Source of the DNA: Earliella scabrosa
Lineage: Eukaryota; Basidiomycota; Agaricomycetes; Polyporales; Polyporaceae
NCBI GenBank assembly: GCA_022605405.1
Contig: JABYQQ010000001.1
Location: 2,294,001-2,358,000, forward strand
Direction of reading: 5' to 3'
DNA length: 64,000 nucleotides
Each line of letters opens with the position of its first letter. Position 1 is the first letter of the stretch. Of this stretch, positions 23,785 to 43,089 are shown one piece after another. The translations under genes and the position numbers were made by a program. The notes under the pieces are model-generated. The model saw nothing but the letters and a program-made list of their open reading frames with translations. It had not been told where the DNA came from and did no database searches.

Positions 23785-24487
23785 TGCTCGGTATTCGGTG
23801 CTCGGTGCTTTATGGTTCTGTCTCTTTTGGCCGGAAGTCCTGGATTGACTTGCACCCGGACTTTCGTGCCTATGCTCCAACCCTTCACTTTGCGTCTCTG
23901 CCAGTTCAACAGATTCGAATCGCTTTCATACGAGGTCGGATAGCACCCGTAAACTCGGTGCGCGGAAGACTGCGAGTGCGAGAGTTGGCACGCCCATGTC
24001 GGTCCATGTTCAGAGACGACCCGTCGGACCCACCGATCCATTTCTACTATTACTAGCGACGAGGTGATCAGGTACATACAATCCTTCCAGGCCATTGGCC
24101 TCCCACGTCGACTGCAGTTCGTTCGGACGAGACGGAGGTGCAGTGGACACAAAGTCCGCGCCATGGAAAGTCCGTCCTGGTAGAGAGTCTGCTGACAGGG
24201 GGTCCTTTGTATGCAGACTTGTCCATCGCTTGCATATCTCGCGGCGCCTCGTTCAGCCTTCTTCATCATCTATGTACGTATCATATTTCGTAGGTCAGGC
24301 CGCTCAGACCTCAGAGATGGCGCGTCTGCGTAGTACGTGAGGTCCATGTGGGCGTGTCATTAGATGTCACTGCAATGTGGGCAGACGCTCGTGAACACAC
24401 GGAGATGGTCGCGGACCGATCATTTGATCCGCTTCGAGGACGGTCCCGGCGGCGCCCACGAGCGATGCGAGCAGCGACCATCGACGG
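23785..24487. other. Intergenic region between DBP4 and the mobile element
   Basis: This is the DBP4 3' flank up to the proposed insertion site. No gene or repeat is supported. TATTACTAG and TCATCATCTATGTACGT stretches are AT-rich but unremarkable. Confidence 0.45.
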
Positions 24488-24491
24488 AACA
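24488..24491. repeat. Candidate target-site duplication AACA (left)
   Basis: AACA immediately precedes the left inverted repeat, and the same four bases follow the right one at 42328-42331. Four bases can match by chance, so this supports the boundary only together with the inverted repeats and the mirrored subterminal clusters. Confidence 0.5.
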
Positions 24492-24520
24492 CTATGAAGG
24501 TCCCCTTTGGACAAAAATCC
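24492..24520 (+). repeat. Left terminal inverted repeat
   Basis: It begins CTATGAAGGTCCCC and ends CAAAAATCC. It matches the reverse complement of 42299-42327 at 22 of 29 positions. Weaker similarity continues inward (GTTT, then GGGATCCC) for roughly 25 more bases. Confidence 0.65.
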
Positions 24521-24538
24521 GCCGTTTCGTACCATCTC

Positions 24539-25010
24539 GCGGGATCCCTAGGGATCCCCAGGGATCCCCCGGGAACCCACAGGATCCCCCGGGAACTCTC
24601 GGGAACCCTCGGGAACCTGCGGGAACTCTAGGGATCCCTCAGGATCCTTGGCGCCTACTCGGCTAGCACCCGGGGAATCCTTGGGAATTGCCGGGAATCG
24701 CCAGGATTCCCGTCTTTTCCTGCCCACCTTCAATGCGAGCCCATAGGCCTCTCGGTTAAGGGTGTCCGGGAATCCTCAGGAATCCCGAGGAACTAGTTAA
24801 TGCTGGTAAACGATACCCTTTGTACCTCGCTTTCGTGTTTGGGAATCCTCAGGAATCCCGAGCACTTACATAAGCATCCCATGCCTCGTTGATGAGGAAT
24901 GATCGGGATTCCCCGGGATTCCCGAGGATTTTATGTAAGCAATTTCCATGCATCCAGTGCCGGGAATCGCAGGGAATCCTCGGGAATCCCGAGGATCTTA
25001 TGTAAGCACA
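24539..25010. repeat. Left subterminal palindromic repeat cluster
   Basis: The outer part (24539-24660) is a chain of about a dozen near-copies of GGGATCCC/GGGAACTC-type octamers spaced about every 10-14 bp. The inner part (24670-25010) holds longer copies built on GGGAATCCTCAGGAATCCC and its reverse form. Three of the inner copies are followed or preceded by TTATGTAAGC or its complement. The same two blocks occur in mirror order at the right end, so these look like subterminal transposase-binding repeats. Confidence 0.75.
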
Positions 25011-25090
25011 GCTGCCTTCTGCGACCTGTGCGAGTCCTGCAGGCTTCGGCTTCTCGTCCTCGCTCGTCAAACTTCAAAGTCTATCTTTCG

Positions 25091-25100
25091 CTATAAATAG
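25091..25100 (+). promoter_or_regulatory. TATA box, HECT-like gene
   Basis: CTATAAATAG is a near-ideal TATA box, 420 bp upstream of the proposed start at 25519. Transcription would begin around 25120-25135, leaving a long leader or 5' UTR introns. An ATG at 25105 lies only a few bases after the box, so it is probably upstream of the transcript start. Confidence 0.45.
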
Positions 25101-25518
25101 TGCAATGTCTGCCCACTCAACTCTATACCAGAGAATCCACTGTGTCCTTCCTGGCTGCAGATGTCGCAGCTGGATCCAGATCATTCCATCTCTTCAGGCT
25201 CCAGGTCAAGTCGTCAAGCATGTTCGTGCTCTGTTTGTACTTTATGTTCGCCGAGTTACAATTTTGCCTTGTAGATTCCTACCCTTCCTACCGATGTCTG
25301 TTCTTTCTGTAACCATGTATGGTTCCAGCATGGTGCCAATCCATCGCTGTTGGAGCCTGCCTTGCAGTCAGTCGCTCTTGAATATCTTCGTGGTGGATCG
25401 TCGTGCACTCTTTCGGCCTGTGGAGGCTTCCATCCTGTACGATAATGTTTGCGATTGATCTGCATGTCTCGCATTGATGTCTGCATAAATATAGGTTAAC
25501 CCTGTTGATGGGCAACCA

Positions 25519-28500
25519 ATGTGTCTGTGTGGACAGGCATTGGATCAACACATCCATGGGTATGTTTGTCCTCGCTGATGTTGCTGTCGCCTCGTTCTTA
25601 TATTCATCTCTCCCATAGCTATCCAAACCGACAGCCTGACCAGGGTATTATGGTTAACACACAGGTTCCTTCTGGCAATTACATATCTCAGTCCCATCTC
25701 GTCGCCTCTATGTCTGCTCCTGGTGTCCCTTCGTCTTCGGTCTCTTCGGTGTCGTCTATGTCCTCGGTCCCCTCTATGCCCTCCACTATGCCTTCCTCTA
25801 TGCCCTCCTCTATGTCCTCCTCGTTCTCTGCTATGCCCTATACATCTTCCATGCCCTCCCATTCCTCTATGTCGTCACTCACCCCTGCCGAACTACACCC
25901 GATGTCGAACATGTCCATCCCTCTCAGCCAAGTTAGTCCCATCACACCTTTCACCCAGCCTATTGCCACTGGCCACAATGTCGCACAACTTCGTGCTGCA
26001 AGTGCACGGAGAAACCTCCCTCAGCATGCAGGTGCCAATACCGTCGCCTTTCGTCCAGGCTCAGGCTCGCGAGGCCGCTCGTCATCTTCAGCTGGTCGCG
26101 CAGTAGTTGCGGCTTCAGTGACCAAGAAGACACTTATTATTCTCATCAATCCGATCTCGGTGCGGTTGAGTGTATGCGTATATTCAGCTTTCTCCTCACG
26201 ATGACATTGATCTGCAGGATGCCCCGGACATCAACAAGTCGCATGGCATACTGCCTGCTCTCAATGTCTCTTTGATGCAGCAGGATGTTGCTCGATTCGT
26301 AGAGCTTCTCCAGCACCATAATCTCGCTTTCACAGTTGAGGTTACCTGTGACCTTCGTGATCCGCTCTCTGACGATGTCAATTTGCACATCACCAACCAT
26401 CTCACGGCACATCGCCTCGTCTTACCACAAGGTCCATCTTCGGACAGCTCCTCTCTTACTGCCTTCCATTCTCGCCGCTGGATCGTTATGGAGAAGAGTC
26501 GTGCAACGGACGGTCGTTTCAAGCTCAAGTATGCCAGTTCGCTTGAGGAGAACGAGTTCCACCTTTCGTGGGTGCGCGTCCATGGTCTCAAGTTAGCCCA
26601 GCCCCCAGATGCATATGTTCTTGTTGTCGGTGCGCACGATGTGCTTGTGAGATCCAGCGAGATACTGAACTCTAGTGCCAGGTCCACGATATGGAGATAT
26701 GAGCATCCCACCTCCCCCTGCAGCTGAGCCAAGCTGTTCGTGCCACACAGTCGCACACTTCTGTGGGGCATTCCGACTCTTGCGCCCATTCATCGTCTTC
26801 ACAAAGAAGAAACTTCAGGTTCAGGACGAATGGTTCGAGTGCCAGCAGTCGCGGTGTCCAAGGTGTCCTCTCTGTGGAAACGAGGGGCCGAATCGTCCTA
26901 CAACTCCACCACACGTTCCTTCTACATCCCGCATACATCCTCGCTCACCTCAAAGTCCTGACCAAGCAGTCAAGCGGGTGCGAACAGAGACTGAGTCGAG
27001 CCGACCTCAACTTCCCTCTCTCGTTCTCCCTTCCGAGAACACATCCCATTCGGCGTCATCCTCTTTGACTCCAGCATTTGGCAACATCAATCTCGAAGTT
27101 TCACAGGGTCTCTATCATGCAGCGCCAGAGTCCGATGGTGATACCTCCCCTGATGGTACCATTCCATCCATTGGTGGAGTTCTGGCAAGCCATTCGCTAA
27201 CTGATGCTGACCTGCGAGGGTTGCCTGGAAGTGCGATGTCGTCTGGTCGTGCTTCGCACTCTCTCCCACCGGCTGCGACGTTCTCGTTGTCGTCCTCGCC
27301 TGTCGTCGGACACGTGCCGAGTCCGACTGCCGGGTCGATGTCGTCTGGTCGCCCTTCGCACTCTCTCCCACCGGCCGCGACGTTCTCGTCGTCGTCCTCG
27401 CCTGTCGTCGGACACGTGCCGAGTCCGACGGCCGGGTCGATGTCGTCTGGTCGCCCTTCGCACTCTCTCCCACCGGCCGCGACGTTCTCGTCGTCGTCCT
27501 CGCCTGTCGTCGGACACGTGCCGAGTCCGACGGCCGGGTCGATGTCGTCTGGTCGCCCTTCGCACTCTCTCCCACCGGCCGCGACGTTCTCGTCGTCGTC
27601 CTCGCCTGTCGTCGGACACATGCCGAGTCCGACGGCCGGGTCGATGTCGTCTGGTCGCCCTTCGCACTCTCTCCCACCAGCCGCGACGTTCTCGTCGTCG
27701 TCCTCGCCTGTCGTCGGACACGTGCCGAGTCCGACGGCCGGGTCGATGTCGTCTGGTCGCCCTTCGCACTCTCTCCCACTGGCCGCGACGTTCTCGTCGC
27801 CGTCCTCGCCTGTCGTCGGACATGTGCCGAGTACGACTGCCGGGTCGATGTCGTCTGGTCGCCCTTCGCACACTCTCCCACCGACCGTGCCCTTTGCGTC
27901 CTCGTCGTCGCCTGTCGCCGGACATGTGCCGAGTCCGACTGTTGGATCGATGTCATCGGCCCCTGTGCATGTGACCGTGCTTCCTGCATCTGCTACAGGT
28001 CTAATGTCTGAACTATCGATGTGGTACGAGCAGATGGAGGGAGGCCGGACCCCTCACCAGACTATCACCCTAAAGGCCGATAGTCTTGAGCAGCTTGGTG
28101 AAGTGCTTCTCTCATACCTTCTTCATCTACACCGCCCAAATGTGCAAGGTGCCAAGGCATGGAATCGACCTCAGGGTGTTCGCCAGTTTACCAAGTTCTC
28201 GATCAAGAACTATACAACGTCTTCGGCCCGGTTCTACGGAGCGTACGTTGGCATTGTTATGCAATTGTTGATGTATTGACCGAGAGTGTAGAGGTGTTGC
28301 TGTTGGTCAAGGGCCAGGTCGGGCTGGACATCTCCATGCTCTCAGTCAGATGACATGTGATCCTGCCTTCTGGATTGAGCGGCTCGGAGGTGGTCAGTCC
28401 ATGCCAGTATTCCTCGACGATACAGTTACCAACTCTCAGCGCACTGCTACATGGGAGGCTTTCGGTGCATTGTGTGGAATCCACCTTGCAGTGCACGGTT

Positions 28501-29835
28501 TGGGTCCTGTTCCTGTCTCGCCTTTTCTCATTCTACTGGCACTTCTCTCCCTGTTCGGACCAGACACCAATCTCCGCTTCGGCTACCTCGAGGACGTACC
28601 AGCATCACTGCGTGGCTCGGTGCCCCAGTTCGTCTCGGATGTTGTCAGCCCGATTGTCGATCTGTCCGTGTTGGCTGCTCTTGACAAAGATCTTGCTACA
28701 TCTCTCGCACCCTGGATCGAGCTGCCCTGGGACGAACCCATTCCTTCATTCCACAACCACGAGCATCCTGCAAGACAGTTTGTCATTATGGTTTTGGAGA
28801 AGAATGTAAGTCATACATCGCTGCCATCCAGGGCATAACAGTTGTCGCTGCTATACTAATATTTCACCAGATCGCTGAGGTCGCCAGTTCACGTGCGACT
28901 GCGACTGGTCCCGAAACACACAAAGCATGGCTGTTCGAAGCATTCTTCAAGATCGTCTTTGAGAAGACGGCGAGTATGCTCGGTAGTCGAGAGTTTCTTG
29001 CATTCTGCAAGGGACTCAATGTGCCAGTCAGCTGGGAAGACAGTTCAGGAAGGGTGCGAAGTGGATCGCTGATTCAGGTGAGTCCACATATTACTCCCTA
29101 TCTACAACCAAGCTGAGCAGTACGGCCAGAGTATTCATTCAGTGGTTCCCGATCGCAGCAGTCTGCCCCGACTGGTGATCGCAATGTTCAATCGGCGTGT
29201 TTCCGATCCTGCCGACTTCATCAAGAAGTATGTCATCTTCCACCGCACAAGCAAGAAGGGAGATTCTGCTTCTTCTCTTGATCCAGACAAGCTCAAGGCT
29301 CGGCGGGCCGCTGAGAAGCTCTTCGCAAGGAGGCTGATGCGTTACTTGCATGGGTGTGGCCATCCGAACCACCGCTTGCTGCGAGACAGTGGTCTGGTCT
29401 CGGACGACATGTTTATTGCAGAGGTATGGTCTTGTTGTACCCTGGATACACAAGCAGTAACTGACGACTAGGGCAATTGCTCAAGGCCTCTTCGCAAACC
29501 ACTCGGATTGAGCTACTGCTTCGGGCAGTCACCGATGCAGATCTCCTTCCAGTCGACCCGACTTGGGCCATCCACGTAAGATGTTGCTTTCTAATGTGTG
29601 TATCGCTCTCTCTCACATATGTATTGGTCAGTTTGCCTTTCCTATGAGGGCTCGTGAGCCCAATGGTGCTTTTCTGGGCATACACACCTGCACGAACAAC
29701 ATCGACGTCTTTCTCACAGAGGAGTTGTATGAGCTGCTCAGGGTCGCACCAGCGTCTGACAGCCATGCTACTCGGTTTGATGTGGCAGTTCACTCTATGC
29801 TACTGAGGTCAGGGATGGACTACAACGAGGTGTAG
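25519..29835 (+). CDS. HECT-type E3 ubiquitin ligase-like passenger protein
   Basis: Nine exons join in frame (25519-25559, 25619-26159, 26218-26629, 26724-28242, 28292-28805, 28871-29077, 29121-29423, 29486-29575, 29632-29835), about 1276 residues. The N terminus is Ser/Met-rich low complexity. A folded segment follows (DAPDINKSHGILPALNVSL ... RRWIVMEKS), then a Cys-rich patch (CSCHTVAHFCG, CQQSRCPRCPLC) that may bind zinc. Next come seven 34-residue repeats, and then a HECT-like domain from GAGVAVGQGPGRAGHLHAL through FGALCGIHLAVHGLGPVPVSP. The C-lobe ends FLGIHTCTNNIDVFL, where HTC aligns with the catalytic cysteine of HECT ligases. The start and first exon are the least certain part. HECT-like proteins carried by transposons may act on host or transposase proteins, but that role is inference. 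Confidence 0.68.
27236..27949 (+). repeat. Seven-copy 102-bp coding minisatellite
   Basis: Seven direct repeats of 102 bp encode 34-residue units reading SMSSGRPSHSLPPAATF then a Ser run and PVVGHVPSPTAG. The middle copies are almost identical at DNA level and the outer copies have diverged, the usual pattern of slippage or unequal exchange. The repeat creates long open frames on the opposite strand that are not genes. Confidence 0.95.
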
Positions 29836-30114
29836 TTGGTGGCTGCACAATCGCATAACTCGCCACAGTAAATTCGCCACAGTACTACACTTGAATGGGG
29901 ATTGTAAGATATACCTATAGCTGGGAGCATGTATTCCATGATTTGAATGTGACGCTGGCAGCACGTTCTACAACATATATACTGTGATGTCTTCGAGGGC
30001 AAGGACATGCGAGTGTGGACATTCCAGTCCTCGAATATGTCACTGCAACTGTGACACAGTCACACTCTCTTGTCGGAAATCTCGCCGATCGCAACTCATC
30101 TCGTCTGCACCATC

Positions 30115-31420
30115 ATGTCCTCTCAAGACGAAAGCAGTCCTCGCACTACAGCAGGATCACCAATGCTTGCTAGCTCAGGTGCTCACATCTTGCAAACTGG
30201 CCAAATAGGCTGGATTACACTAACTTTGCTGTGCAGATTCCGAAACAGATTCACTGTCGGCATCGTCGCGTTCATCCAACATTTCGCAAGCAGATCTGCA
30301 GACTGTGTATCAGGATTTCCTCGTTCTCACCGGACTTCCTGCCAGTATTGAATCGCCGGAGCCTGCAGCATTCAATACTGCCATTGACAATAATGAGAGT
30401 ACGAACTTCATGGTGGGTTACCTTGGCACAGATAGAAAGCACAGTTCGTCCATCGGTACTGACTGGGCTAACTAGACACAGCACGATCCTCTCTTTCTCG
30501 ACACACCTGCTTCCTATGGTGTTGCTACAGACATCCAGGTCACACAGCAGACTACACGTCCCTCAACTCCTGTGGTTGACAACGAGCCAAGTGGACCTCC
30601 GGGTATCCCCCACTCTGACTCTCTCGGTCTCATCGGAATGCCGCCCGAACATTTTTATGGTGGTCAAATAGAGGTCTGTTTCTTCTATGTGAAGCACTCT
30701 TTGCATGGATTTATCATGTGCAAGCAGACACTGAGTCGCGAGAATACACCCGCCCTGCCAGCCACCCCAGCCCCCATGCAACCCCCTCCCCCTGCTGCTG
30801 CTGCCATTGTGTGTGTGTCCTCTATATGCATTTTTCATTCGCTGAAATTGTGTCTAGACACCCTTCACAATTCTCGAGCGTACCTTCGCCCTTGAGCGTG
30901 TGCAATACGACAGCTTTCGCAACAAGGGCTACGAAACAGGATATGCTCAGTGGCTTCAGATCCGCCTCATGGAACAAATTCTGAACAACATTGGTATCTC
31001 CTTGCACCACCCGCAACCAGCCGTCTTCCATGGCTGTACAGTTACCGACAAGGATGTGCTGGCATGGTTGGGTCATCCACGGGCTCAGAAGACATACAAT
31101 AACTGGCGCACGTGGTACAAGCTGGCCTGTGGAGCACTGCGGTCCCTCGCAGCACAGGAACACACTCTCCCTCGTACTCCCGAAGAAGAGCGCTTGTTTC
31201 AAATCCTGCAGCGATGGAACCAGCACGACCTCCTCCCAGCTGCCCAGGGGCTCCCAGTCGCCGCAGAGACTAACTGGGCATACTTAGCAGTCACAGCGAA
31301 AGCATCGCACATCGGCGATATGTGCAAGGCTCTCAAGAAGAAGGCTCCATATTCGCAGGTGCGTACTCCATGCTAAATCTCACAGCTTCAGCTTATATTC
31401 GCTGCCAGACATGGGGTTAG
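30115..31420 (+). CDS. Unrecognised passenger protein of the mobile element
   Basis: Five exons join in frame (30115-30178, 30237-30412, 30476-30673, 30858-31358, 31409-31420) into about 316 residues. The N-terminal third is acidic and Ser/Thr-rich (MSSQDESSPRTTAGSP, DSETDSLSASSRSSN) and looks disordered. The C-terminal half from FTILERTFALERVQYDSFRN is a probable helical domain rich in Trp and Tyr (GYAQWLQIRLMEQILNNIG, KTYNNWRTWYKLACG, RWNQHDLLP). It ends SQTWG. Reading through the last intron instead would stop at 31376. I do not recognise the family. Its position between the HECT-like and oxygenase-like genes, on the same strand, suggests an element-encoded accessory protein. Confidence 0.6.
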
Positions 31421-31789
31421 AATGCCGAGTATTAAAGAGATGTGAGTGTGCCACAATGTTGACACTGCACACAGCTAATCCAGGCTCTCTCAAGAGAAAA
31501 CAAGTGGCAGACAGACATTTAAATGTACATTATAGCAGTTGCGATGCATCGTCAACACCGAGATTTGCCCAACATTGCACGACGGTTCTTCCCGCACAAA
31601 CTCATCGTCGTGCCCATGTTCATTCCAAGCTCGTAATCTACTAGTACAGCTGTCAGTGCTGTCAGTGCTCATACTGCAGGCCAAGCTCGTAAACGCCAGC
31701 AACTCAGGGTGGAGAACAGCGAGTCGTCCTGTTGCCATGGCCGAGTCCCGACTGCCAGTGGTCATGGTGCTGTCTGAGTAGCGGTGTCA

Positions 31790-32640
31790 GACTGCAGCCT
31801 GGGCGACGAGAGCACGTCGCCGTCGACAAGAGCACAGCGTCGGGGTCGGGCGCGAGTGATCGTGGTCAGGCGCGAGTGGTCGTGGTCGGGCGCGAGTGGT
31901 CGTGATCGAGAGCAAGTGGTCGTGGTCGAGAGCAAGTGGTCGTCGTGTCCGCCAGCGAGTTCTTGGGTTCGCCGGCAAGTCTCGGTGTCGGCCTGGGCGA
32001 TGAGAGCACGTCGTCGTGGTCGTGGTCGAGAGCGAGTGGTCGTGGTCGAGCGAGTCGTTGTGGTCGAACGACTCGTGGACCAGAGCAGGCGGCCGTGGAC
32101 GAAAGCGAGTCGTCCTGTGCTCGTACTACAGGTATCGCACCCCACGGGTCGTCATGTCCGGCAGCGAGTGGGCACCCGTGGGTCCTCGTGCACAGCAGCG
32201 AACCCTCGTGAACCAATGACAGTCGTCGTGGACAGCGGCGGGTCGTTGGGGCCCCCTGTCAAGTTGTTGTTTCCGCTGTCGGGATCTCGTGTCCGCTGTG
32301 GAGTTCTCGAGTGCGCGCACGAGCTGTCTCTCGTGTACGCCTGTCAGTGGCCGTGTCCAGCTGTGGGTCCTCGTGAACGGCAGCGAGTCGTCGTGGACCA
32401 GTGCAAGTCGTCGAGTTGTCGTGTCCGCGGTCGAGTTGTCGTGGCCGCCGCCAAGATCTCGTGTCCGCCGGTGAGTCGCAGGGTCCGACTGCAGCCTGGT
32501 CGACGAGAGCGCGTCGTCGGTGACACGTGCACGTCGTCGTGGTCGCGAGCGACTGAGCGTGGTCGCGAGCGAGTCGTCCTGGTCGGACGACTCGTGGATG
32601 GGAGCGAGTGGCCGTGGATAGTCCACGGCGCCGCTTGAGG
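31790..32640. repeat. GTCGTGG-type degenerate simple repeat
   Basis: The plus strand repeats words such as GTCGTGGTCG, GAGAGCAAGTGGTCGT and GCGAGTCGTC with irregular spacing over about 850 bp. Motifs recur without a fixed period. It shades into the palindromic units that follow, which have similar GTCGTC/GCGAGTCGTC spacers. Confidence 0.7.
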
Positions 32641-32759
32641 GCGCCTTACCCGGGTCGTGGCTGGGGCTCGGCGTCGTGGAGTGTTTGGGCGGGTTGCTAC
32701 AGGCCGGGCTCGTGGTGGACGCCGGGGGGCGACGCCGTGGTGGCGACGTGGTGGTGGTG

Positions 32760-35700
32760 AGGTGGTGGCCTGTAAGAACATGCGTCAGCATGCATGGTAC
32801 GCAGGATATGCGAGACGTGAGAGTCACGGGCGAGGGGGCAGGACGACGGGCGGGTGGAGAACCCACGGCGCACGAGAGGCGGCGCCGCGCTGCAGGCGGC
32901 ACAGCGCCAGCGCGACCGCCGTCTGCAGGCGGGTCTCCTTCTTCGCGCGCCGCCCGTCCTGCTACACGAGCGGTTCGCACAGCTGGACGGGCAGCTGGGC
33001 GACTCGCCCCTGCCGCTCTTTGGCCAGAACGAGCGGCAGGTGAAGAAGCAAAGGGTGCGGCAGGCGGTGGGTGCTTTAGCGCCCACCGGCACGCACACAC
33101 AGGCTGCCTGGCAGCCGCTTTCCTTCTTCGCCCGCCGCTCGTTCACGCAAACGAGCGGCGTGGGCAACTCGTACAGCTGTTGGGCGAGCTGTACGAGCTG
33201 CGAAGCGACGCGTGAGGGAAGGGGAGCGCTCTTGAAGCGCGAAAGGGGGAGCAGCGGGGAGGAGAGGGGAGGAGGTGAAAATTTTTTTTCACTCGCCTGC
33301 TCTGCTGGGCTTCGTGTAGAGGCTGCGGGTCCTGGCTGGCTCGACGGCGTCTGCGCATGTGCTGGCTCGACGTCGTGTGCGCGTGGTCGTAGAGTGCTCG
33401 CAGACCTCTGCGAGACGACGGGTGGGGCGTCATCGTGGTGGCGACAAGCGGTGGAGCGGTGGAGCGAGCCGACATGGGCGAGTGCAAACGGTCGGGCACA
33501 GCTGTCCGAAGGTGGGTCAGCATGGACACTACGCAGGAGTGCGAGACGAAGGAAGGACGGGCGAGTGTGCAGGGGCAGGACGAGGGGCGGGTGGAGAAGC
33601 AATGGCGGGCGCGCTAGCCCGATCGCCGTCTGCAGGCGGGTCTCCTTCTTCGCGCGCCGCCCGTTCTGCCCCACGAGCGGTTCGTACAGCTGCACGGGCA
33701 GCTGCACGACTCGCCCACGCCCCTCGTTCTGGCAAACGAGCGGCGGGCGAAGAAGGAAACGGGGCGGCAGGCGGTGGACGCTTTGGCGCCCAACCGGACA
33801 CGCGCAGACGCCTCCTGCCGCACCCTTTCCTTCTTCGCCCGCCGCTCGTTCGGGCAAACGAACGGCGTGGGCAGCTCGTACAGCGGCCGGGGCAGCTGTA
33901 CGAGCCGCCCACGCAAGTATATGGAGGACGGGGCGCTCTTGAAGCGCGATAGGGGGAGGAGAGGGGAGGGAGGTGGAAACATTTTTTCACTCACCTCCTC
34001 TGCTGGGCTGCGTGTTGGACACCGCAGGCGTCGCCGGTGTGGCGAGACGGTCCTCGTGCTGGGGCCCCGGCTGGTCGTGGGGCGCTCGTGCAGTCCTCGC
34101 AGACTCTCTATCTGCGAGGCGTCGGGTCGTCGAGGACCCGTGCACGACTGCGAGTCGTCCAGTCGTCGTGCCATCGTGCACGACTGCGCGTCGTCGCGTC
34201 TCCGTGGCCTCGTGCACGGCTGCGATTGTGCAGGCGGGGATCGTGGTGGACGCCGGAGGCGACGCGATGCGGCTGTAAGAGCGTGTGTCAGCCCCATCTG
34301 TACACAGGAGAGGCGAGAGGAGAGAGGCACGGGCGGGGGTCCAGGGGCAGGACGACGGGCGGGGGGAGAAGGCACGGCGCACGAGAGGCGGCGCCGCGCT
34401 GCAGGCTGCTGTCCTTCCTCGCGCGCCGCCCCTTCTGCTACACGAGCGGTTCGTACAGCTGGATGGGCAGCTGGCCGACTCGCTCCCGCCGCTCTTTTGC
34501 CAGAACGAGCGGCAGGGGAAGAAGGAAAGGCGGCGGCAGGAGGCGGCAGCGCGTGTGCGCTTGGGCGCTAAACCCGCCCCGGCCTGCTGCACACTTTCCT
34601 TCTTCACCTACCGCCCGTTCTGGCGAACAAGCGGCGTGGGCAGCTCGTACAGCGGCCGGGGTAGCTGTACGAGCTGGCCCGGCAGGCATATGGGGGACGG
34701 GGCGCTCTTGAAGCGCGAAAGGGGGAGGTGAGGGGAGGGAGGTGAAAAAATTTTTCACTGACCTCCTCGGCTGGGCTTCGTGTAGACGCAGCCCAGTTCT
34801 TGCGGGCTGCAGGCGGTTTTTGGACGCCGGAGGCGTCGCCGAGGTGGCGACACGAGTTGGGCCGTGAATCTGTCAAGCTATGTGTCAGTATAGAATGTCC
34901 GCCGGAGATGGGAGAGTAGAGTACAAAGGGTGCGAGAAGATGCAGCGGCGCACGGGAGAGGGCGAGGCGGACGCGCGCACGAGCGAAGCGTCGATGACAC
35001 CGCGGAGAGCGCGTCGCCGTCTCTCGTGCGCGGTGCGTCTGCTCCCAAGCGTCCCTCGAAATAAAGAGCGGCGTGGGCTGCTCGTACAGCTCGCCTCGTG
35101 CGAGCTGTACGCACTGCCCACGCCGCTCTTTATTTCGCGACCTGCCAAGCGAGGGCCGCTGTTGAAGCGCGAGAGGGAGAGGGAACTCGGGGAGAGTGGT
35201 AAAAGTATTTACTCACCTGCTGGCACCTCTCCTGGCCTAGGTCGTCGAGGCCCCGTGCACGGCTGCGAGTCGTCCGGTCGTCGAGGCCCCGTGCCCGACT
35301 GCGAGTCGTCCGTCGTCGTGGCCTCGTGCACGGCTGCGCGTCGTCGGGTCTCCATGGCCTCGTGCACGACTGCCATTCTGCAGGAGGGGATGGTGGTGGA
35401 TGCCGGAGGCGCGATGGGGCTGTAAGAGCATGTGTCAGCACCGAATGTACGCAGGAGGAGCGGGACGAGAGAGGCACGGGGGACGGTCCAGGTGCAGGAC
35501 GACGGGCGGGGGGAGAACCCACGGCGCACGAGAGGCGGCGCCGCGCTGCAGGCGGCACAGCGCTAGCGCGCACGCCGTCTGCAGCGTGCTCTCCTTCTTC
35601 GCGCGCCGCCCGTTCTGCTCCACGAGCGGTTCGTACAGCTGCCGGGGCAGCTGTACGAGCTGCCCACGCCGCTCGTTTGCCAGAACGAGCGGCGGGCGAA

Positions 35701-36400
35701 GAAGGAAAGTTTGGGGCAGGCGGTGGGTGCTTTAGCGCCCACCGCTACGCACGCACAAGCTGCCTGGCAGCTGCTTTCCTTCTTCGTCCGCCGCTCGTTC
35801 TGGCAAACGAGCGGCGTGGGCAGCTCGTACAGCTGTCGAGCGAGCCGTACGAGCTGCCAAGGGACGCGTGAGGGAAGGGGAGCGCTCTTGAAGCGCGAAA
35901 GGGGGTGGAGCGGGGAGGGAGGAGAAAAAAACTTTTTACTCACCTGTTTGCTAGGTGGCACCTCTGCTGGCCTTGGTCGGTAGCGAGCACGCTGCCTCGT
36001 CGAGGCGTGCTCGACGTCGTCGCCGCTGCGGAACGGGCGGCGGCGTGGAATTGCCTGGCCTCGTCTCTGGGCTGCGAGTCGCGGACTTGCTTGACTCAGG
36101 GCGGGTGGTGGACGTCGCGGTTGGGCGCATGCCCCGGCGGCAGACACCGGCGCCATCCGGGTCGTCGTGGGCCGCGAATGGAGTGCAATGCACTGGACGA
36201 GTGTCAGCTCCGAAAGTGACAGAGAGAGAAAAGAGGACGGATGGCGGGGCGAGCGGTGTTCGGACCGAACGACGGGCGGGTGAAGAAGCAACGGCGCACG
36301 GCAGACGGCGAGGCGCTGCGACACTGTGTCTCATGCGCCGTTGCTTCTTCAACCAGAGCTGGTGGCCGCGCGGGGAGGGTAACACAAAGGGGGCACGGCT
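32760..36400. repeat. Tandem array of palindrome-rich units (about 4 full, 2 partial)
   Basis: Units begin near 32765, 33510, 34275, 34875 (partial), 35420 and 36195 (partial). Each begins with a GTGTCAGC/ACGCAGGAG-like box, then GACGGGCGGG and GCGGCGCCGCGCTGCAGG. Next come two large hairpins made of CCTTCTTCGCGCGCCGC and GAGCGGCGGGCGAAGAAGG arms, with an inner GTACAGCTGC/GCAGCTGTAC palindrome. The unit then has CGCTCTTGAAGCGCGA and an A/T tract such as AAAATTTTTTTT, followed by CACTCACCTC. Spacers between units carry GCACGGCTGCGAGTCGTCC repeats. The clearest hairpin is 35591-35707. I cannot tell whether these act in RNA or DNA. Confidence 0.8.
36282..36350. repeat. Perfect 17-bp inverted repeat
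   Basis: The arm at 36282-36298 (GAAGAAGCAACGGCGCA) is exactly reverse-complementary to 36334-36350, with a 35-bp loop. It is the hairpin of the last, partial unit of the palindromic array and shares the GAAGAAG arm start with the other units. Confidence 0.9.
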
Positions 36401-36853
36401 CACCTATGTACGAGCCGCCATCGCTGCCGTCCTCAAGCCCGTCTTCCAGTCTGAAGTGCGGGCGGCCAAAGTCGATCGCTTTCTTGATAAACATGCAGTT
36501 GAGACATCCAGGTAGTACTATGACCGACACTCTGCGCGAGGCGCAGTGCCGCAAGTCGTCGTGGGGTCTGAGACCACCACTGCGCAGGCAACAGGTCGGA
36601 TGAAGTACATACACATGGCTGTTCAAGAAGCAACAGGAGACAAAAGGCGCCCGAACCACAGTTCGGGACCAAACATGGACAAATAAATGCCCGCTGGCAT
36701 GCTTGATGTCTGCCCTCTCTTCTCTTGCATCCACGAAGAGCACGAAAGCTCGGTGAGTGTACCTAGAGAGATCTTATTGTAGCCGAACTTATTCATCTTG
36801 TGTGCACCATGCCAATAGCTCTGTTATCAGCATGTAGGGACCACACACATAAG

Positions 36854-36860
36854 TATAAAT
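36854..36860 (+). promoter_or_regulatory. TATA box, oxygenase-like gene
   Basis: TATAAAT lies 35 bp before the ATG at 36895. The spacing is short but workable for a compact leader. Confidence 0.45.
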
Positions 36861-36894
36861 GTTTGTTCTAAACATGTTCATCTAGACGAGCAAT

Positions 36895-38613
36895 ATGGCC
36901 CGAACACGGCATGCGAAAGCACAGCGCAAAGCTCAATTCGCATCAGCCCTGGAGGCATACAGTGCAAACCCGCGTGAGTCACTTCTGCTTGCGCTGCCTG
37001 CACCATTGCGTGGATGGATTCGTGTAGTCCAGCATATCGCTACGAAGTCTGAACTACTCGAATCAATCCGCCTGGCACTCTTCCCTGATGAGCGCGGACA
37101 AATCGAACAAGCTCTAGTCACCCTTTATGAGACACACACTGGCAAGAAACTTGCAGATCCATGGTCTGCATTTCTTGGTCACTGTACCCAACATGAGGGC
37201 ACCGTCGCCAAAGCTGTTCTGCAGGCGGTCGCTGACTATCGGACTGCACGTGATGCTTATCTCCAAGCACGCAAGAGGCTGATTAAAGTGTGCCGCCTGG
37301 ACAACTCTGGAGACAGTGAGGCTGAGCGCACTGCGCGGCGTGAGCGGCGCCTCAAGTTTCTTGAATCGCACTGCACTGTAGTGCGTGTCAAGAAGCTGGA
37401 TGAGCCATACCCTCCAACCAAAGAATGGGTGGTAGAGACACCTGAGATTGGGGAAAAGTGGCAGGATTGGTGCGAGAAACGCAAGCTGAGGGACAAGCGT
37501 GAGGGGTACTTCCCTGTTCATCTGCTGGATTCCACCAAGCTTCAGCACACGGTGAAGGAGGATGCGAGCGAGCTCATCGTCGATGCCAACACGAAAGAGC
37601 TCCTTGCGGTTGTGATCCGGTCGTGGTGTGCTGAGCAGCCCGTCATCGATGCCATTGCAGCGCACATTGCCGATTCGCCCAACATTCAGCGAAGTGCTCG
37701 TGTGAGTTTTTCATATGTTCACAATCAGCTCTGGCTCAAGTAACTACTCCAGTTGGATGATCCAGGCCATTTGGGACACACTGGATACACTGGTGGCTCC
37801 CGCAACATCAACCAAGGTCTCCATTGGGCGAAGAATCTGAAGTCGGCCAAGCTCAAGAAAGACGCTGCGTTTATCGCCGATCTTCAGTCCCACGAGAGTT
37901 CCATCTGTGCTTTCTTCTGGAACATGGCTCTCAGCTCTCTTCCCATGCAAGTGCTCCAGCCCTACCAGACATATCTGGAGAAGCACTTTCTCCCCCGCAT
38001 GGCGCCCATCGGAACTCCATACTCGACTCATGGCATCTACACTGTCCCCATTGCTCCTCGCGACAACGACAATCCACATGTTCCCCTTTCCTACAACTTC
38101 GATGCTGTGCCTCTTGCTCCCCCTTCGGCAACATTCACAGTAAACTATGCAAGGTGAGTATGGTCCTGTTACTCTCCAAGCCAGACATGCTGACCTTTTA
38201 TTAGGCGCACTCACTTTGAAAACTGCCCTCACAAGTGGTTGATCTCCTGGACTCTCACCCGCACAGGGACTCCAGACGATGGCGGTAACTTCTATCTGCC
38301 TGAGCCTGAGTACGCAGTGAAGATCGAAAGCGCTGCCAACTCACTTGTCGCATGGCAACCAGGCATGTGGCATGGGACAAGCCTTCGCAACTGCAAGCCG
38401 GAGGACCTCATGAAGACCATCCATGAAGTGGGACTCTCCTTCGTCACCTCACCTCGGCTCGCATCACGTTGGGAAAAGTACGTCGCTCGAAACTTTTCAG
38501 CTGAGGCACGGGCGGAGTTAGAAGAGGAGCTTGGGGATGGGGGATATGGGACTGATGTTGAGCGCAATGAGGATGAGGGAGAGGAACTGGATGATGAAGA
38601 GACCTGGTGGTAG
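36895..38613 (+). CDS. 2OG-Fe(II) dioxygenase-like passenger protein, possibly JBP/TET-like
   Basis: Three exons join in frame (36895-37701, 37753-38153, 38205-38613), about 538 residues. The N-terminal half is basic and helical, starting MARTRHAKAQRKAQF. The C-terminal half has features of a double-stranded beta-helix oxygenase: NYARRTHFENCPHKWLISW with a possible HxE iron-ligand pair, a GGNFYLP strand, then VAWQPGMWHGTSLRN with a possible distal His and a following Arg for 2-oxoglutarate. The GG-F-lp ... HGTS pattern recalls fungal JBP/TET-family oxygenases, which can oxidise 5-methylcytosine and are known in basidiomycete transposons of the KDZ type. The tail is acidic (EDEGEELDDEETWW). 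A fold comparison is needed to settle this; an unrelated beta-helix protein is possible. It ends just before the 160-bp repeats. Confidence 0.55.
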
Positions 38614-38701
38614 TTGTACAAATTTTTCGATCTTGTTCCCAAGTGCTTGACTCGTTACATTGTGCTCATAACCAGACTGTGGTTGCTGTATGACACCGTG
38701 T

Positions 38702-39770
38702 GAATCAAATTCGGGAGCACCCACATGAACTTTGGGCATCTATTGAATGTGGTGAAACCAAACTCGGCGGCGATTCCTGCAGCGCTGTGATTTCCGTGAG
38801 CAGATGCGCGCACCCTGGGCCCGTGTTTGCTGTATCTCCGCAGGTGCTTGGCGGAATTGCGCGAGTCAAGTTTGAGAGCATTCATATATATTTTGGGCAT
38901 CTATTGGAGCGGACGAAACCAGACTCGTCGGCGATTCCTGAAGCGCTGTGATTTTTGTGGGCGTCCGCACCCGCACCAAAACTACTTTTGCTGTATCTCC
39001 GCGACCGCTTGGCGGTTTTGTGCGAAACAAGTTCGAGAGCATTCATATATATTTTGGGCATCTATTGGAGCGGACGAAACCAGACTCGTCGGCGATTCCT
39101 GAAGCGCTGTGATTTTTGTGGGCGTCTGCGTCCGCACCAATACTACTTTTGCTGTATCTCCGCGGCCGCTTGGCGGTTTTGTGCGGAACAAGTTCGAGAG
39201 CACTCACATGGATTTTGGGCATCTATTAAAGCCGATGAAACCAAACTCGTCGGCGATTCCTGAAGCGCTGTGATTTTTGCGGGCGTGCGTACCCGCACCA
39301 AGACCAATTTTGCTGTATCTCTGCGGCTGCTTGGCGGAATTGCGCGAATCAAGTTCGGGAGCACTCACATGAATTTTGGGCATCTATTAAAGCTGACGAA
39401 ACCAGACTCGTCGGCGATTCCTGAAGCGCTGTGATTTTTGCGAGCGTGCGTACCCGCACCAAGACCAATTTTGCTGTATCTCTGCGGCTGCTTGGCGGAA
39501 TTGCGCGAATCAAGTTCGGGAGCACTCACATTAATTTTGGGCATCTATTAGAGCCAATGAAACCAAACTCGTCGGCGACTTCTGAAGCCCTGTGATTTTT
39601 GTGAGCAGATGGGCGCACCCTGGGCCCGTGTTTGCTGTATCTCCGCGGCCGGTTGGCCGAATTGTGCGAATCAACTTTGAGAGCGCTCACATGAATTTTG
39701 GGCATCTATTAGAGCCGACGAAACCAAACTCGTCGGCGACTTCTGAAGGGCTGTGATTTTCGTGAGTCCG
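38702..39770. repeat. 160-bp tandem repeat array
   Basis: Six full and one partial copies of a 159-161-bp unit lie head to tail. Each contains TTTTGGGCATCTATT (first copy CTTTGGGCATCTATT), then a GACGAAACCA...CTCGTCGGCGATTCCTGAAG segment able to form a CGACGA/TCGTCG hairpin, and GCTGTATCTCCGCGGCCGCTTGGCGG. Middle copies are the most alike. It lies between the convergent oxygenase-like and transposase genes. Confidence 0.93.
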
Positions 39771-39853
39771 TGTACATGAAACTTTATCACTTCTGCCACA
39801 GATCCATCTCCATGAAGCCAAAGTGTGACGGTACATAATCACCCATACACATT

Positions 39854-41723
39854 TTAGAATGTGCCCTGTCTCCGCTCCAAAATTTCCCCACAAATCTGAA
39901 ACGCCTTCTTCCAGAGTAACCGCCGGACCTGCATGTTCTGCGAAGTGATGTCGACGAGGCCTGCCAACCGCATGTCCAGCTCCTGAATCTCCCAAGGAAA
40001 TAGCGGCTCCTCGGGAGGGTCGCATGGGACGTGAGGCCGCTTCTGTGGACCTTGGTTAGGGTGCACCATGAATGGATTGACATCGTCCCATTCGCTCTCC
40101 TCACGATCGAGGAGATGGTTCATAACGGCAGGGTCATGGTGTTCCTCCCAGTCAATCCCATACTCAGAGATGTCACTGGGATTGAGCATCTCCAAGCCAC
40201 GGGCACCATCCATGAGTAGACTGCGAAAGAACATTTGCCGCGGAGTGCGGTTCTTAGTTCCTAGCAGAGTATTTAGCACCAGCTGGAACCATAGATAGTA
40301 CTCTCACCTTTAAGCTGCATGGTATGGTTGTTCCAAGAGTGTACCCAGGCCTCTGCATCGGCATTGATGGCTGACATGAAGAGATGGTGTAGCAGCCAGA
40401 TGTGGCTAGACAGACTGGGGTTGAGATGGCAGTGTGCTTCAAGATCGATGAAGAAGTTCTTCCACTTCAGACCAAATCCATGGGTGACATCGTACCAGAG
40501 CCGCTCGATCCGCGTGTTGTGTACACTTCTATAACACAGTGAGAAATCCAGAGTGAAGTAATAATCATCTTACTTACCGGCCAAAGATATATGATCCCCG
40601 CCCAGGCCCCCGCCTGTGCTCCATATACTCAGCGACACGCACATTCTCTCCCCCATGATCGCCACGGACCCGGCTCGGAAGGCCATGTTCTCCAACACCT
40701 TGCAAGAATAGATCGAGCACAGTGTCAGCGCGGTTGTTGTTGCTAACGCGCATTGCGACAACGAAGCGGGAATGTCCATCGATGAAGGCATGGATGACAA
40801 ACTTCCAGCGGATAAGACCTATATGTCCATAGATATGAGCTAGTTATAATGAGATCAGAGAGTGTTCTGCGCACCGTGTTGGCCATCGTGATGCCAAAGT
40901 GCATTGGCACCAGCCACTTTGTAGACACGGCGCTGTATATGGCGCGCTCCGAAGATCCCAGGAACCCCATGCACACGAATGAAAGACTCGCGGAGACGCT
41001 TCTTTGGCACGTGGTGTCCCATGGCAACAAGGTGACCGTTGAGCATTGCCCGTTTATACTCGGGAAAGCTCTCGAGTGTTGCAGCAACGATGAAGTCGAG
41101 CTCGTCGTCTGTGAGTGTCGAAGTTGGGCGGGTAGACGACTGGTGTATGCGACTGGTGGATCCATCGGGGAGGGTGACATTCTCGAACACAGGAGCTCCT
41201 GGTGGGCGAACACCATACTCGACTGCACGCCTGGAGACTGTGCGGGCAGACCAGCCGAAGAGCGATGCAGTGTCAGTCGTGCCACCTAGGTCCATAGCAT
41301 ACGCCAAGAACTCGGGATTACACTCCTTCTTCGGACGTCCACGCTTCCCAGAGCGGAGCTCCCAATGAGCGACAACCGTAGGCATCTCGATGTTGTCGGA
41401 AGAGGCATGGCAAGCATCGTCGAGAGCACGGACCATGTTGTCGATTCCGAGCTCAAGTGCAGCATACTCGTTTGGTGGAATGGTAGTACGATGCTAATGC
41501 AATAGATGTGAGGCCTGTAAGCATTACTATATACACGGTCTAAGTACATGAACTGCACCTGCTGGGCACTGTGCATAAGCTCAAGAGCCTGTGATCGAAC
41601 CTCGGCCAGACGAGGAGCATCTCCGATCTGTGTACGAAGGGCGACAGTGACTCGTTGCCATAGCTCAGCATAGGCAGACCGAAAGTTGGCAAGAATATTG
41701 GCGGACTGAGAGTTAGATGCCAT
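39854..41723 (-). CDS. Integrase-core DDE transposase
   Basis: This is the likely transposase of the element. Reading from 41723, exon 1 gives [18 protein letters not shown] to SAQQ (41559-41723), and exon 2 begins [13 protein letters not shown] at 41493. A DNA-binding segment ([25 protein letters not shown]) precedes the retroviral-type integrase core. The catalytic residues are readable: Asp in [10 protein letters not shown], Asp in [11 protein letters not shown] and Glu in [11 protein letters not shown]. The core includes [19 protein letters not shown] and the [17 protein letters not shown] segment typical of this family in fungi and animals. The C terminus is acidic and ends LERRQGTF. Several introns are inferred near 41494-41558, 40805-40870, 40535-40590 and 40280-40310. 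The triad and frame appear intact. Confidence 0.82.
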
Positions 41724-41806
41724 GGTATGGAGTGGAGAGGCACTGTAACTAGGGAATCTGGAGAGGGAACAAGTTGCGAGGTTGCAGCCACAACTCCAGC
41801 AGGCGT

Positions 41807-42280
41807 GGGAATTCCTCGGGAATCCCGAGGAATCCTGGCCGAAGATGCAAAGGTAAGCGTGGGAATTCCTCGGGAATCCCCAGGACTGCAGCAAGCCAAC
41901 CACCTCCAGGTGGCGTGGGAATTCTTCGGGAATCCCGAGGAATCCTGGGGAATCCCTGGGAATTCCAGTTAGCAATGCTCTGGTAGGCTTATGTAAGCGA
42001 ATCACTTCCCCAAGAATCCTCAGGAATCCCTGCCACCTTAGCCGACAGGCTATGCATCTTGACAGAGGAATCCTCGGGATTCCCAGGGAATCCTCGGGAA
42101 TCCCTGGCAGCACTAGCAAGCAAGGAGCCATTTGATGGCAGGAAATGCCAGGATCCCGGGGGATCCTGAGGGATCCTGAGGGATCCTGCGGGATCTCGAG
42201 GGATCTCGAGGGATCTTGAGGGATCTCCCGGGAACTCGCGGGAACTTGCGGGATCCTGAGGGATCCCGAGGGAATTCGGC
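41807..42280. repeat. Right subterminal palindromic repeat cluster
   Basis: The inner part (41807-42110) has copies of GGGAATTCCTCGGGAATCCC and a TTATGTAAGC at 41990-41999. The outer part (42150-42280) is a run of GGGATCCTGA/GGGATCTCGA octamers. The order mirrors the left cluster, which supports both as ends of one element. The cluster lies directly upstream of the transposase gene and may also affect its promoter. Confidence 0.75.
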
Positions 42281-42298
42281 ATTATGACACAAACAAAG

Positions 42299-42327
42299 GG
42301 ATTTTTGACCCATAGGGCCACTCATAG
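42299..42327 (-). repeat. Right terminal inverted repeat
   Basis: Read on the minus strand it begins CTATGAGTGGCCC and ends CAAAAATCC, matching the left repeat at 22 of 29 positions. AACA follows it at 42328-42331. Confidence 0.65.
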
Positions 42328-42331
42328 AACA

Positions 42332-43089
42332 CCGACTCTAAACACCGCTCTTGACTCGCACAAAGCTCATCCTGACGCAATCATCTCGCAGACTAGTAGA
42401 GAGTAGCACGCTCGTAACGGTACGAGAGCATCTTCCCTGCTTCATCGACATGACCATTCATCGGAGTACGTCTGGGAAGAGGACGGGTTTACCCACTCCG
42501 AAGACCTTCCATCAAACCTCCTCCCAGTCGTTATGACCGGCCTCCCTCCGCAAGATGTCCCACGTCCATCCCCGGTAATACATCCCCACAGCTGACGTCT
42601 TTGCCGTCACTTCTTGCGTACGTAGTCATCAACAGGAAGATAGCATCGAACGGGGTCTTCGGGCACACGACCTTGCTGATATTGCGCGAGGACGGCGGGA
42701 TGACGCCCCATCAGATCCACCGCGTATGTCGCCAAGTGCAAGAGCGACGCGGAGCAGCCACAATCACGTCGGTCGCGGTCGGTCTCGCGCATCGCGTGGT
42801 CGGGCGAGCGGGGAGCATCGCACTCATGTTGAAATGATGCTTGGGATCGCAGAAATCATACCCGAATCATGAACCAGGAACTGTCTCCCGCTCTGCTCCG
42901 CTCTGTCGCAGATAGCGCCGTTGCTCGCACGTCCACATGCTTGCAGTTGCCGACGGTATCAGCTAGCACGCCTTCGCCTGTGAATCCGCCGAGTATGCGA
43001 CCGAGCACTACTTATAAAGAGCCCGCCCGTCGCGAGTTGGCCCCGCTAACACTGTTGCCCAGTGTCCGCGCATTTACTCCTTCGCCAGC
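42332..43089. other. Intergenic region between mobile element and subtilase
   Basis: No gene is supported. The last part is the subtilase promoter. The element's right end sits about 760 bp upstream of the protease start, so it may affect its regulation. Confidence 0.5.
43013..43018 (+). promoter_or_regulatory. TATA box of the subtilase gene
   Basis: TATAAA within CTACTTATAAAGAGCC lies 72 bp upstream of the ATG, a good position for a highly expressed secreted protease. Confidence 0.6.

Follow-up and report, generated by a model that had tools for sequence, protein, structure and literature searches.

Complete families of the IS3EU superfamily of DNA transposons are described as always having TA..TA ends and usually having target site duplications (TSDs) of 6 bp (PMC10045372). 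IS3EU elements carrying a TET gene (TET+ IS3EU) have been reported from rusts, together with one family from Tuber indicum, and in all of them, as that survey presents them, the TET gene is flanked by the transposase on one side and by an oppositely oriented alpha-kinase gene on the other (Kojima 2025, PMC12730594). In the portion of the survey drawn on here, Kyakuja is the only type of TET element given for Polyporales, HxE is the hallmark of PE-type TET/JBP enzymes, and renewal of cargo was inferred from trees and pairwise comparisons. Fungal HECT ligases are listed as RSP5, TOM1, UFD4, HUL4, HUL4A, and HUL5 in the sections used of PMC5913265. Here, we describe a complete DNA transposon of 17,834 bp in the polypore Earliella scabrosa, which carries genes for an integrase-type DDE transposase, a TET/JBP-like oxygenase, and a HECT-like protein. 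It occupies positions 24493-42326 of the window, the 64,000-nucleotide stretch of contig C1 (GenBank accession number JABYQQ010000001.1; positions 2,294,001 to 2,358,000) that was analyzed.

Structure and copies of the transposon

The element has the termini TATGA..TCATA and is flanked on both sides by the 6-bp TSD GAACAC (Table 1). The terminal inverted repeats (TIRs), TATGAAGGTCCCCTTTGGACAAAAAT and TATGAGTGGCCCTATGGGTCAAAAAT, are 26 bp long and imperfect. The original prediction placed the limits at 24492 and 42327 with AACA as the duplication; an element was indeed found there, but its true borders lie one base further in on each side, and AACA merely forms part of GAACAC. A 4-bp TSD was ruled out, as all four elements with both ends have 6 bp. 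The predicted mirrored subterminal repeats are present, and GGGAATCC-type motifs continue inward from the left array to about position 25000. Arrays with a 10-bp period were found near both ends in both subfamilies of the element defined below, with differing sequences (GGGATCCC-type in subfamily A, TTCACGATGA-type in subfamily B), and may be bound by the transposase along a single face of the DNA helix. No part of the window matched Rfam.

To locate further copies, the genome (51.7 Mb in 48 contigs) was searched with a 26-bp end pattern allowing up to 3 mismatches, using the reversed pattern as a control. Ten sites were identified, five per strand, compared with 0 and 0 for the control. All 10 are element ends, and 8/10 pair into four complete elements located on contigs C1, C12, C6, and C26 (Table 1), each flanked by an exact 6-bp TSD of different sequence. 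The C12 copy ends in TATGA..TCATA, and the ends of the C6 and C26 copies are of the TATGA..TCATA or TATGA..CATCATA type. The C26 copy holds insertions, since the transposase and HECT-like matches are split there. Additional copies sharing both termini and flanked by differing duplications, proposed as a check on the prediction, are therefore present as four elements with 6-bp TSDs.

The check for empty sites gave a divided result. When the flanks of the C26 copy were joined, query bases 19-455, which include the junction at base 300, matched C31:46070-46506 at 100% (437/437), and by this alignment it is a gap-free empty site of the C26 insertion within the same genome. Four weaker matches (75-77%) also cross this junction. 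With the joined flanks of C12, the full 600 bases aligned to C30 at 93% and to C11 at 91%; these alignments are gapped somewhere, as the target stretches are 620 bases long. A further match to C8 (82%) covered bases 58-599. No empty allele was seen for the insertion site of the window element, for which only the left flank was searched, matching itself and one 48-base stretch. The paired ends, TSDs, copies, empty site, and intact DDE transposase bear out the single transposon unit originally claimed, and confidence that it is a transposon is very high.

Table 1. Coordinates of features within the window element, followed by the complete copies in the genome
Feature	Position	Strand	Details
Left TSD copy	24487..24492		GAACAC
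Left TIR	24493..24518	+	TATGAAGGTCCCCTTTGGACAAAAAT; 0 mismatches to end pattern
Left subterminal array	24540..24647	+	10-bp units CGGGATCCCT, 10.8 copies; inverted counterpart at right end
HECT-like gene	25305..29835	+	Basis: gene models, P0005 alignment, HTC motif
102-bp tandem repeat	27234..27954	+	7.1 copies; unit a multiple of 3; within HECT-like gene
ORF2	30858..31376	+	Conserved coding stretch; 33% identical to C-terminal part of P0005
GC-rich block	31775..36500		Direct and inverted repeats, some short, others about 700 bp
TET/JBP-like dioxygenase gene	36895..38613	+	538 amino acids; exons 36895-37701, 37753-38153, 38205-38613
161-bp tandem array	38702..39764		6.6 copies; between convergent oxygenase and transposase genes
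Integrase-type DDE transposase gene	39854..41723	-	560 amino acids; exons 41723-41535, 41493-40875, 40818-40578, 40528-40302, 40260-39854; Pfam rva_4, E value 5.9e-63; rve just above cut-off
Right subterminal array	42151..42273	-	10-bp units, 12.3 copies
Right TIR	42301..42326	-	TATGAGTGGCCCTATGGGTCAAAAAT on minus strand; basis: end-pattern match
Right TSD copy	42327..42332		GAACAC
Complete copy C1	Window element		TSD GAACAC
Complete copy C12	C12:340033-357148		17,116 bp; TSD GGAACT
Complete copy C6	C6:1412190-1430953		18,764 bp; TSD CCCAAT
Complete copy C26	C26:21310-53498		32,189 bp; TSD CTGTAT

In this analysis, the C1 and C12 copies were named subfamily A, and those on C6, C26, and C42 subfamily B. 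Between the two, identity was 71% in the main transposase exon (66% for the shorter C26 stretch), 38% in the oxygenase stretch, and 53-56% in the HECT-like stretch. The remaining two end sites, both of subfamily B, meet at C42:24763-24765, where a right end adjoins a left end head to tail, separated by a single base. Such an arrangement may reflect a circle junction, a tandem, or insertion beside an existing end (the TSD would then be TCATAA). Circle junctions are formed in IS3-type transposition. Identity between C42 and C26 is 99.8-99.9% in the stretches covering the HECT-like gene, the oxygenase, and the left end, and at the C42 right end only the last 80 bases match. The end of this contig falls inside another repeat. 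Fragments of an older, broken subfamily A copy were also found at C6:238961-277000, comprising the left part and remnants of the HECT-like and oxygenase genes with stops; the degenerate oxygenase, near 276 kb, shares 87% identity with the C12 version (1,556 columns) and 71% with the C1 version (1,583 columns).

The transposase is intact, as originally suggested, with the triad D266-D323-E358 retained in a five-exon model. A tblastn search of plasmids with a transposase exon gave no match. Both IS3EU characteristics, 6-bp TSDs (4/4 elements) and TA..TA termini, were identified, and because ends, TSDs, and the intact integrase-type DDE transposase all fit, the element can be assigned to IS3EU with high confidence. 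Further integrase genes, 43-47% identical to the window transposase and with open frames of 227-582 amino acids, were found at loci L018-L028 and probably represent simpler IS3EU families. At six of these loci (45-47% identical), a motif similar to that of the window element and finishing CATA was seen at the one end examined, and among 12 related integrase loci scanned, none had paired TA ends with 6-bp TSDs.

The oxygenase and HECT-like genes

The oxygenase carries an HxE motif (THFEN) and a distal HGTSL. A protein assigned by its source to E. scabrosa is 99% identical to it over 68% of the model. HxE was found in 8/8 alignment rows covering the site (the alignment has two more rows, which do not reach it), as was the HxE..H facial triad of the PE type, to which the enzyme most likely belongs. 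The best structural matches of a low-confidence model were CMD1, CcTET, NgTET, and TET2. Against this assignment, ALKBH3 followed close behind the TET/JBP structures. When the alignment profile was compared with PDB sequences, only two splicing-factor matches (E value, about 2) were returned. A TET/JBP-like identity is nonetheless predicted with fairly high confidence, and the base-oxidizing enzyme originally considered possible is consistent with the HxE motif and the structural matches, tempered by the low confidence of the model. A diverged homologue of the oxygenase, lacking stops in its main aligned stretches, lies at C2:940177-942000; the transposase homology search found no match on that contig.

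For the HECT-like gene, exon limits were modelled from 28004 downstream, where a six-exon C-terminal model (28004-29835) encodes 507 amino acids with no stop. A Cys-rich N-terminal stretch of the gene aligns with protein P0005 of Fomes fomentarius at 25305-25439. P0005 (45% identity) was the sole homologue found among the 7,995 candidates that shared most words and were scored. ORF2 (open reading frame 2), which the C6 copy also has, may form the last part of the HECT-like gene. P0005 also holds an ORF2 counterpart, followed by a low-complexity stretch resembling translated GC-rich repeats, and for this reason a related element is probably present in Fomes. Folding part of P0005 as a single sequence yielded no usable model, with a mean predicted local distance difference test score (pLDDT) of 34.

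Probable exchange of the TET-bearing segment

The C1 and C12 copies were compared in 500-bp steps. To the left of 31.5 kb they are 97.8-100% identical, with the exception of one 96-column step (91.7%), and to the right of 40.0 kb 99.1-99.8% identical, in each case out to the terminus. Between these flanks, identity is 79-94% at 33-36 kb, 54-70% at 36-37 kb, 78% in the oxygenase gene, and 84-90% in the tandem array. Synonymous divergence (dS) was 0.008 for the HECT-like part (507 codons) and 0.013 for the transposase (560 codons), compared with 0.883 for the oxygenase (535 codons), which had a nonsynonymous divergence (dN) of 0.103 and an omega of 0.117. The simplest reading of these sequence comparisons is that one of the two copies recently received a diverged TET segment.

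The left boundary zone of the putatively exchanged segment is the GC-rich block (61-69% GC per kb, compared with 49-60% in the other kilobases examined), and the right boundary zone is the 161-bp array. As the change-over zones coincide with these repeats, repeat-mediated recombination is the likely route of exchange. The array occupies the same place in both subfamilies, with 161-bp units in A and 160-bp units in B (locus L059, 4278-5503), and similarity between the A and B units is only chance-like (best E value, 0.19). A period of about 160 bp is near the nucleosome repeat. The C6 copy and the beginning of C42 likewise contain GC-rich repeats, and P0005 ends in low-complexity sequence of a similar kind.

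Alternative explanations

The superfamily call draws on the ends, the TSDs, and the transposase domains and triad, and the TIRs of ∼26 bp ending in TATGA differ from the TIRs of >30 bp with TAYGG given for rust TET elements (PMC12730594), such that the element could fall in a different integrase-type superfamily, whether Ginger, a Polinton-like one, or a sister of IS3EU that has no name yet. This is improbable, given that TA..TA ends and usually 6-bp TSDs are as outlined for IS3EU/GingerRoot (PMC10045372), and that in 10 element ORFs rva_4 was the sole Pfam match above cut-off, accompanied by one sub-threshold repeat family, with no polymerase or capsid. The divergence pattern between C1 and C12 could likewise have arisen with no TET exchange, if the flanks had instead been homogenized by gene conversion; the data show only that divergence differs between the flanks and the TET segment. 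Conversion would, however, have had to reach both termini, covering about 8 kb in one flank and 2.5 kb in the other, and yet spare the middle, and exchange of a single segment is simpler, making conversion the rather unlikely account.

The HECT-like protein could be an accessory protein other than a ubiquitin ligase, for example a DNA-binding or assembly factor, and this is given slightly less than an even chance. In its favor, the protein had no Pfam match up to an E value of 5, the 14 PF00632 matches scored genome-wide all fall outside the element, and a PDB sequence search up to an E value of 10 returned five matches with no HECT chain among them. A PDB search with the HECT-like profile gave no match at all, hhalign against two host HECTs gave a probability of 0.5%, and hidden Markov model scores against four host HECTs were 2.1, 0.1, and -0.7 bits. 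Conversely, all three homologues aligned have sequence resembling a C-lobe close to the domain end: LLRA[VL]T[DS]x[DE]L[LI]P, or a near variant of it, precedes IHTCTxN[IV]D, which contains the C-lobe cysteine and occurs as HTCTNNID, HTCTANVD, and HTCTANID; in the window protein, LLRAVTDADLLP precedes IHTCTNNID. Shuffled C-lobes reached the observed score in 0/200 local and 3/200 global trials, a result weakened by the region having been picked by eye and by a local match covering just 9 columns around HTC (hhalign probability, 8%). With the standard searches negative and the by-eye C-lobe test only suggestive, the label HECT-like was chosen rather than HECT ligase, and HECT identity stands at about even. 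Of the ligase-like protein originally described, the HTC motif was recovered but the Pfam, PDB, and profile searches all failed; the proposed action on host protein turnover is unproven because the ubiquitin-ligase reading rests on this short motif. Both cargo genes might also be passengers without a role in the life cycle of a real transposon, as their roles are predicted only and the HECT-like gene has no recognized domain. This seems very unlikely, given the gene order shared by subfamilies A and B, between which the main transposase exon is 71% identical, the constraint on the TET-like gene noted above (omega), and the TET genes known in rust and truffle IS3EU elements as surveyed (PMC12730594).

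Proposed mechanism and significance

Overall, the locus likely represents a full-length transposon of the IS3EU kind equipped with a TET-like anti-silencing enzyme, a HECT-like accessory protein, and an exchangeable TET gene. The 26-bp ends, together with the arrays of 10-bp period, are probably where the transposase binds, and the ends and TSDs indicate insertion via a 6-bp staggered cut. The TET/JBP-like enzyme, for which the motif, best structural matches, and purifying selection are described above, probably oxidizes 5-methylcytosine placed on the element by the host, which would keep the element genes expressed. Such action on chromatin marks is suggested by the enzyme family and agrees with the published view of fungal transposon TETs, as far as that account was drawn on (PMC12730594). 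The HECT-like protein would probably be another accessory protein, with host proteins as its targets, for which the indications are weak, and a joint anti-silencing function of the cargo is accordingly no more than suggested. The TET gene, placed between two repeat arrays, appears to be swapped among copies, presumably by recombination.

The element looks like a genomic parasite equipped to escape host DNA silencing. More speculatively, and with considerable doubt on our part, it may carry a two-part counter-silencing kit, in which a DNA-base oxidizer works alongside a highly diverged HECT-type ubiquitin ligase that removes silencing proteins of the host; the oxidizer would be the part renewed as a cassette, through recombination between the flanking arrays. 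With several complete copies in one sequenced genome, a direct test of element-borne DNA oxidation is possible, and copies differing mainly in the TET segment constitute a natural experiment on cargo renewal. If the HECT-like protein were a real ligase, transposons would counter silencing at the protein level also.

Comparison with known systems

Near the C terminus, the fungal HECT ligases described in PMC5913265 and the window protein have in common a motif in which a cysteine follows a threonine (HTC), although the window protein shows no significant sequence similarity to these ligases. The main text of that paper does not contain "transpos," the main text of PMC12730594 contains neither "HECT" nor "ubiquitin," and no transposon-borne HECT gene was found in the open-licence literature by titles and abstract openings. 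The oxygenase resembles PE-type TET/JBP enzymes, as characterized in PMC12730594, in having HxE instead of HxD, and the solved structures closest to its low-confidence model are CMD1, CcTET, NgTET, and TET2. It was found in Polyporales (Earliella, Cerioporus, Lentinus, and Dichomitus), whereas the hosts given for the type in that survey are Agaricales and Pezizomycetes.

The IS3EU/GingerRoot elements outlined in PMC10045372 are alike in their usually 6-bp TSDs, TA..TA ends, and integrase-type DDE transposase; the copies free of large insertions (C1, C12, and C6) differ in being 17-19 kb long with several genes. The TET+ IS3EU of rusts and Tuber indicum, as depicted in PMC12730594, share the TA..TA ends, the 6-bp TSDs, and a TET/JBP gene between the transposase and an opposite third gene. 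The order and orientation of that layout were found here, but the alpha-kinase was not: none was recognized in the 10 ORFs and three gene models scanned, which are part of the element's frames, and the gene in the place of the kinase is HECT-like by motif. The window element differs further in its polypore host and in its TATGA..TCATA ends with 10-bp subterminal arrays. On these sequence features, TET-bearing IS3EU, hitherto given by that survey for rusts and a truffle, is now found in a polypore.
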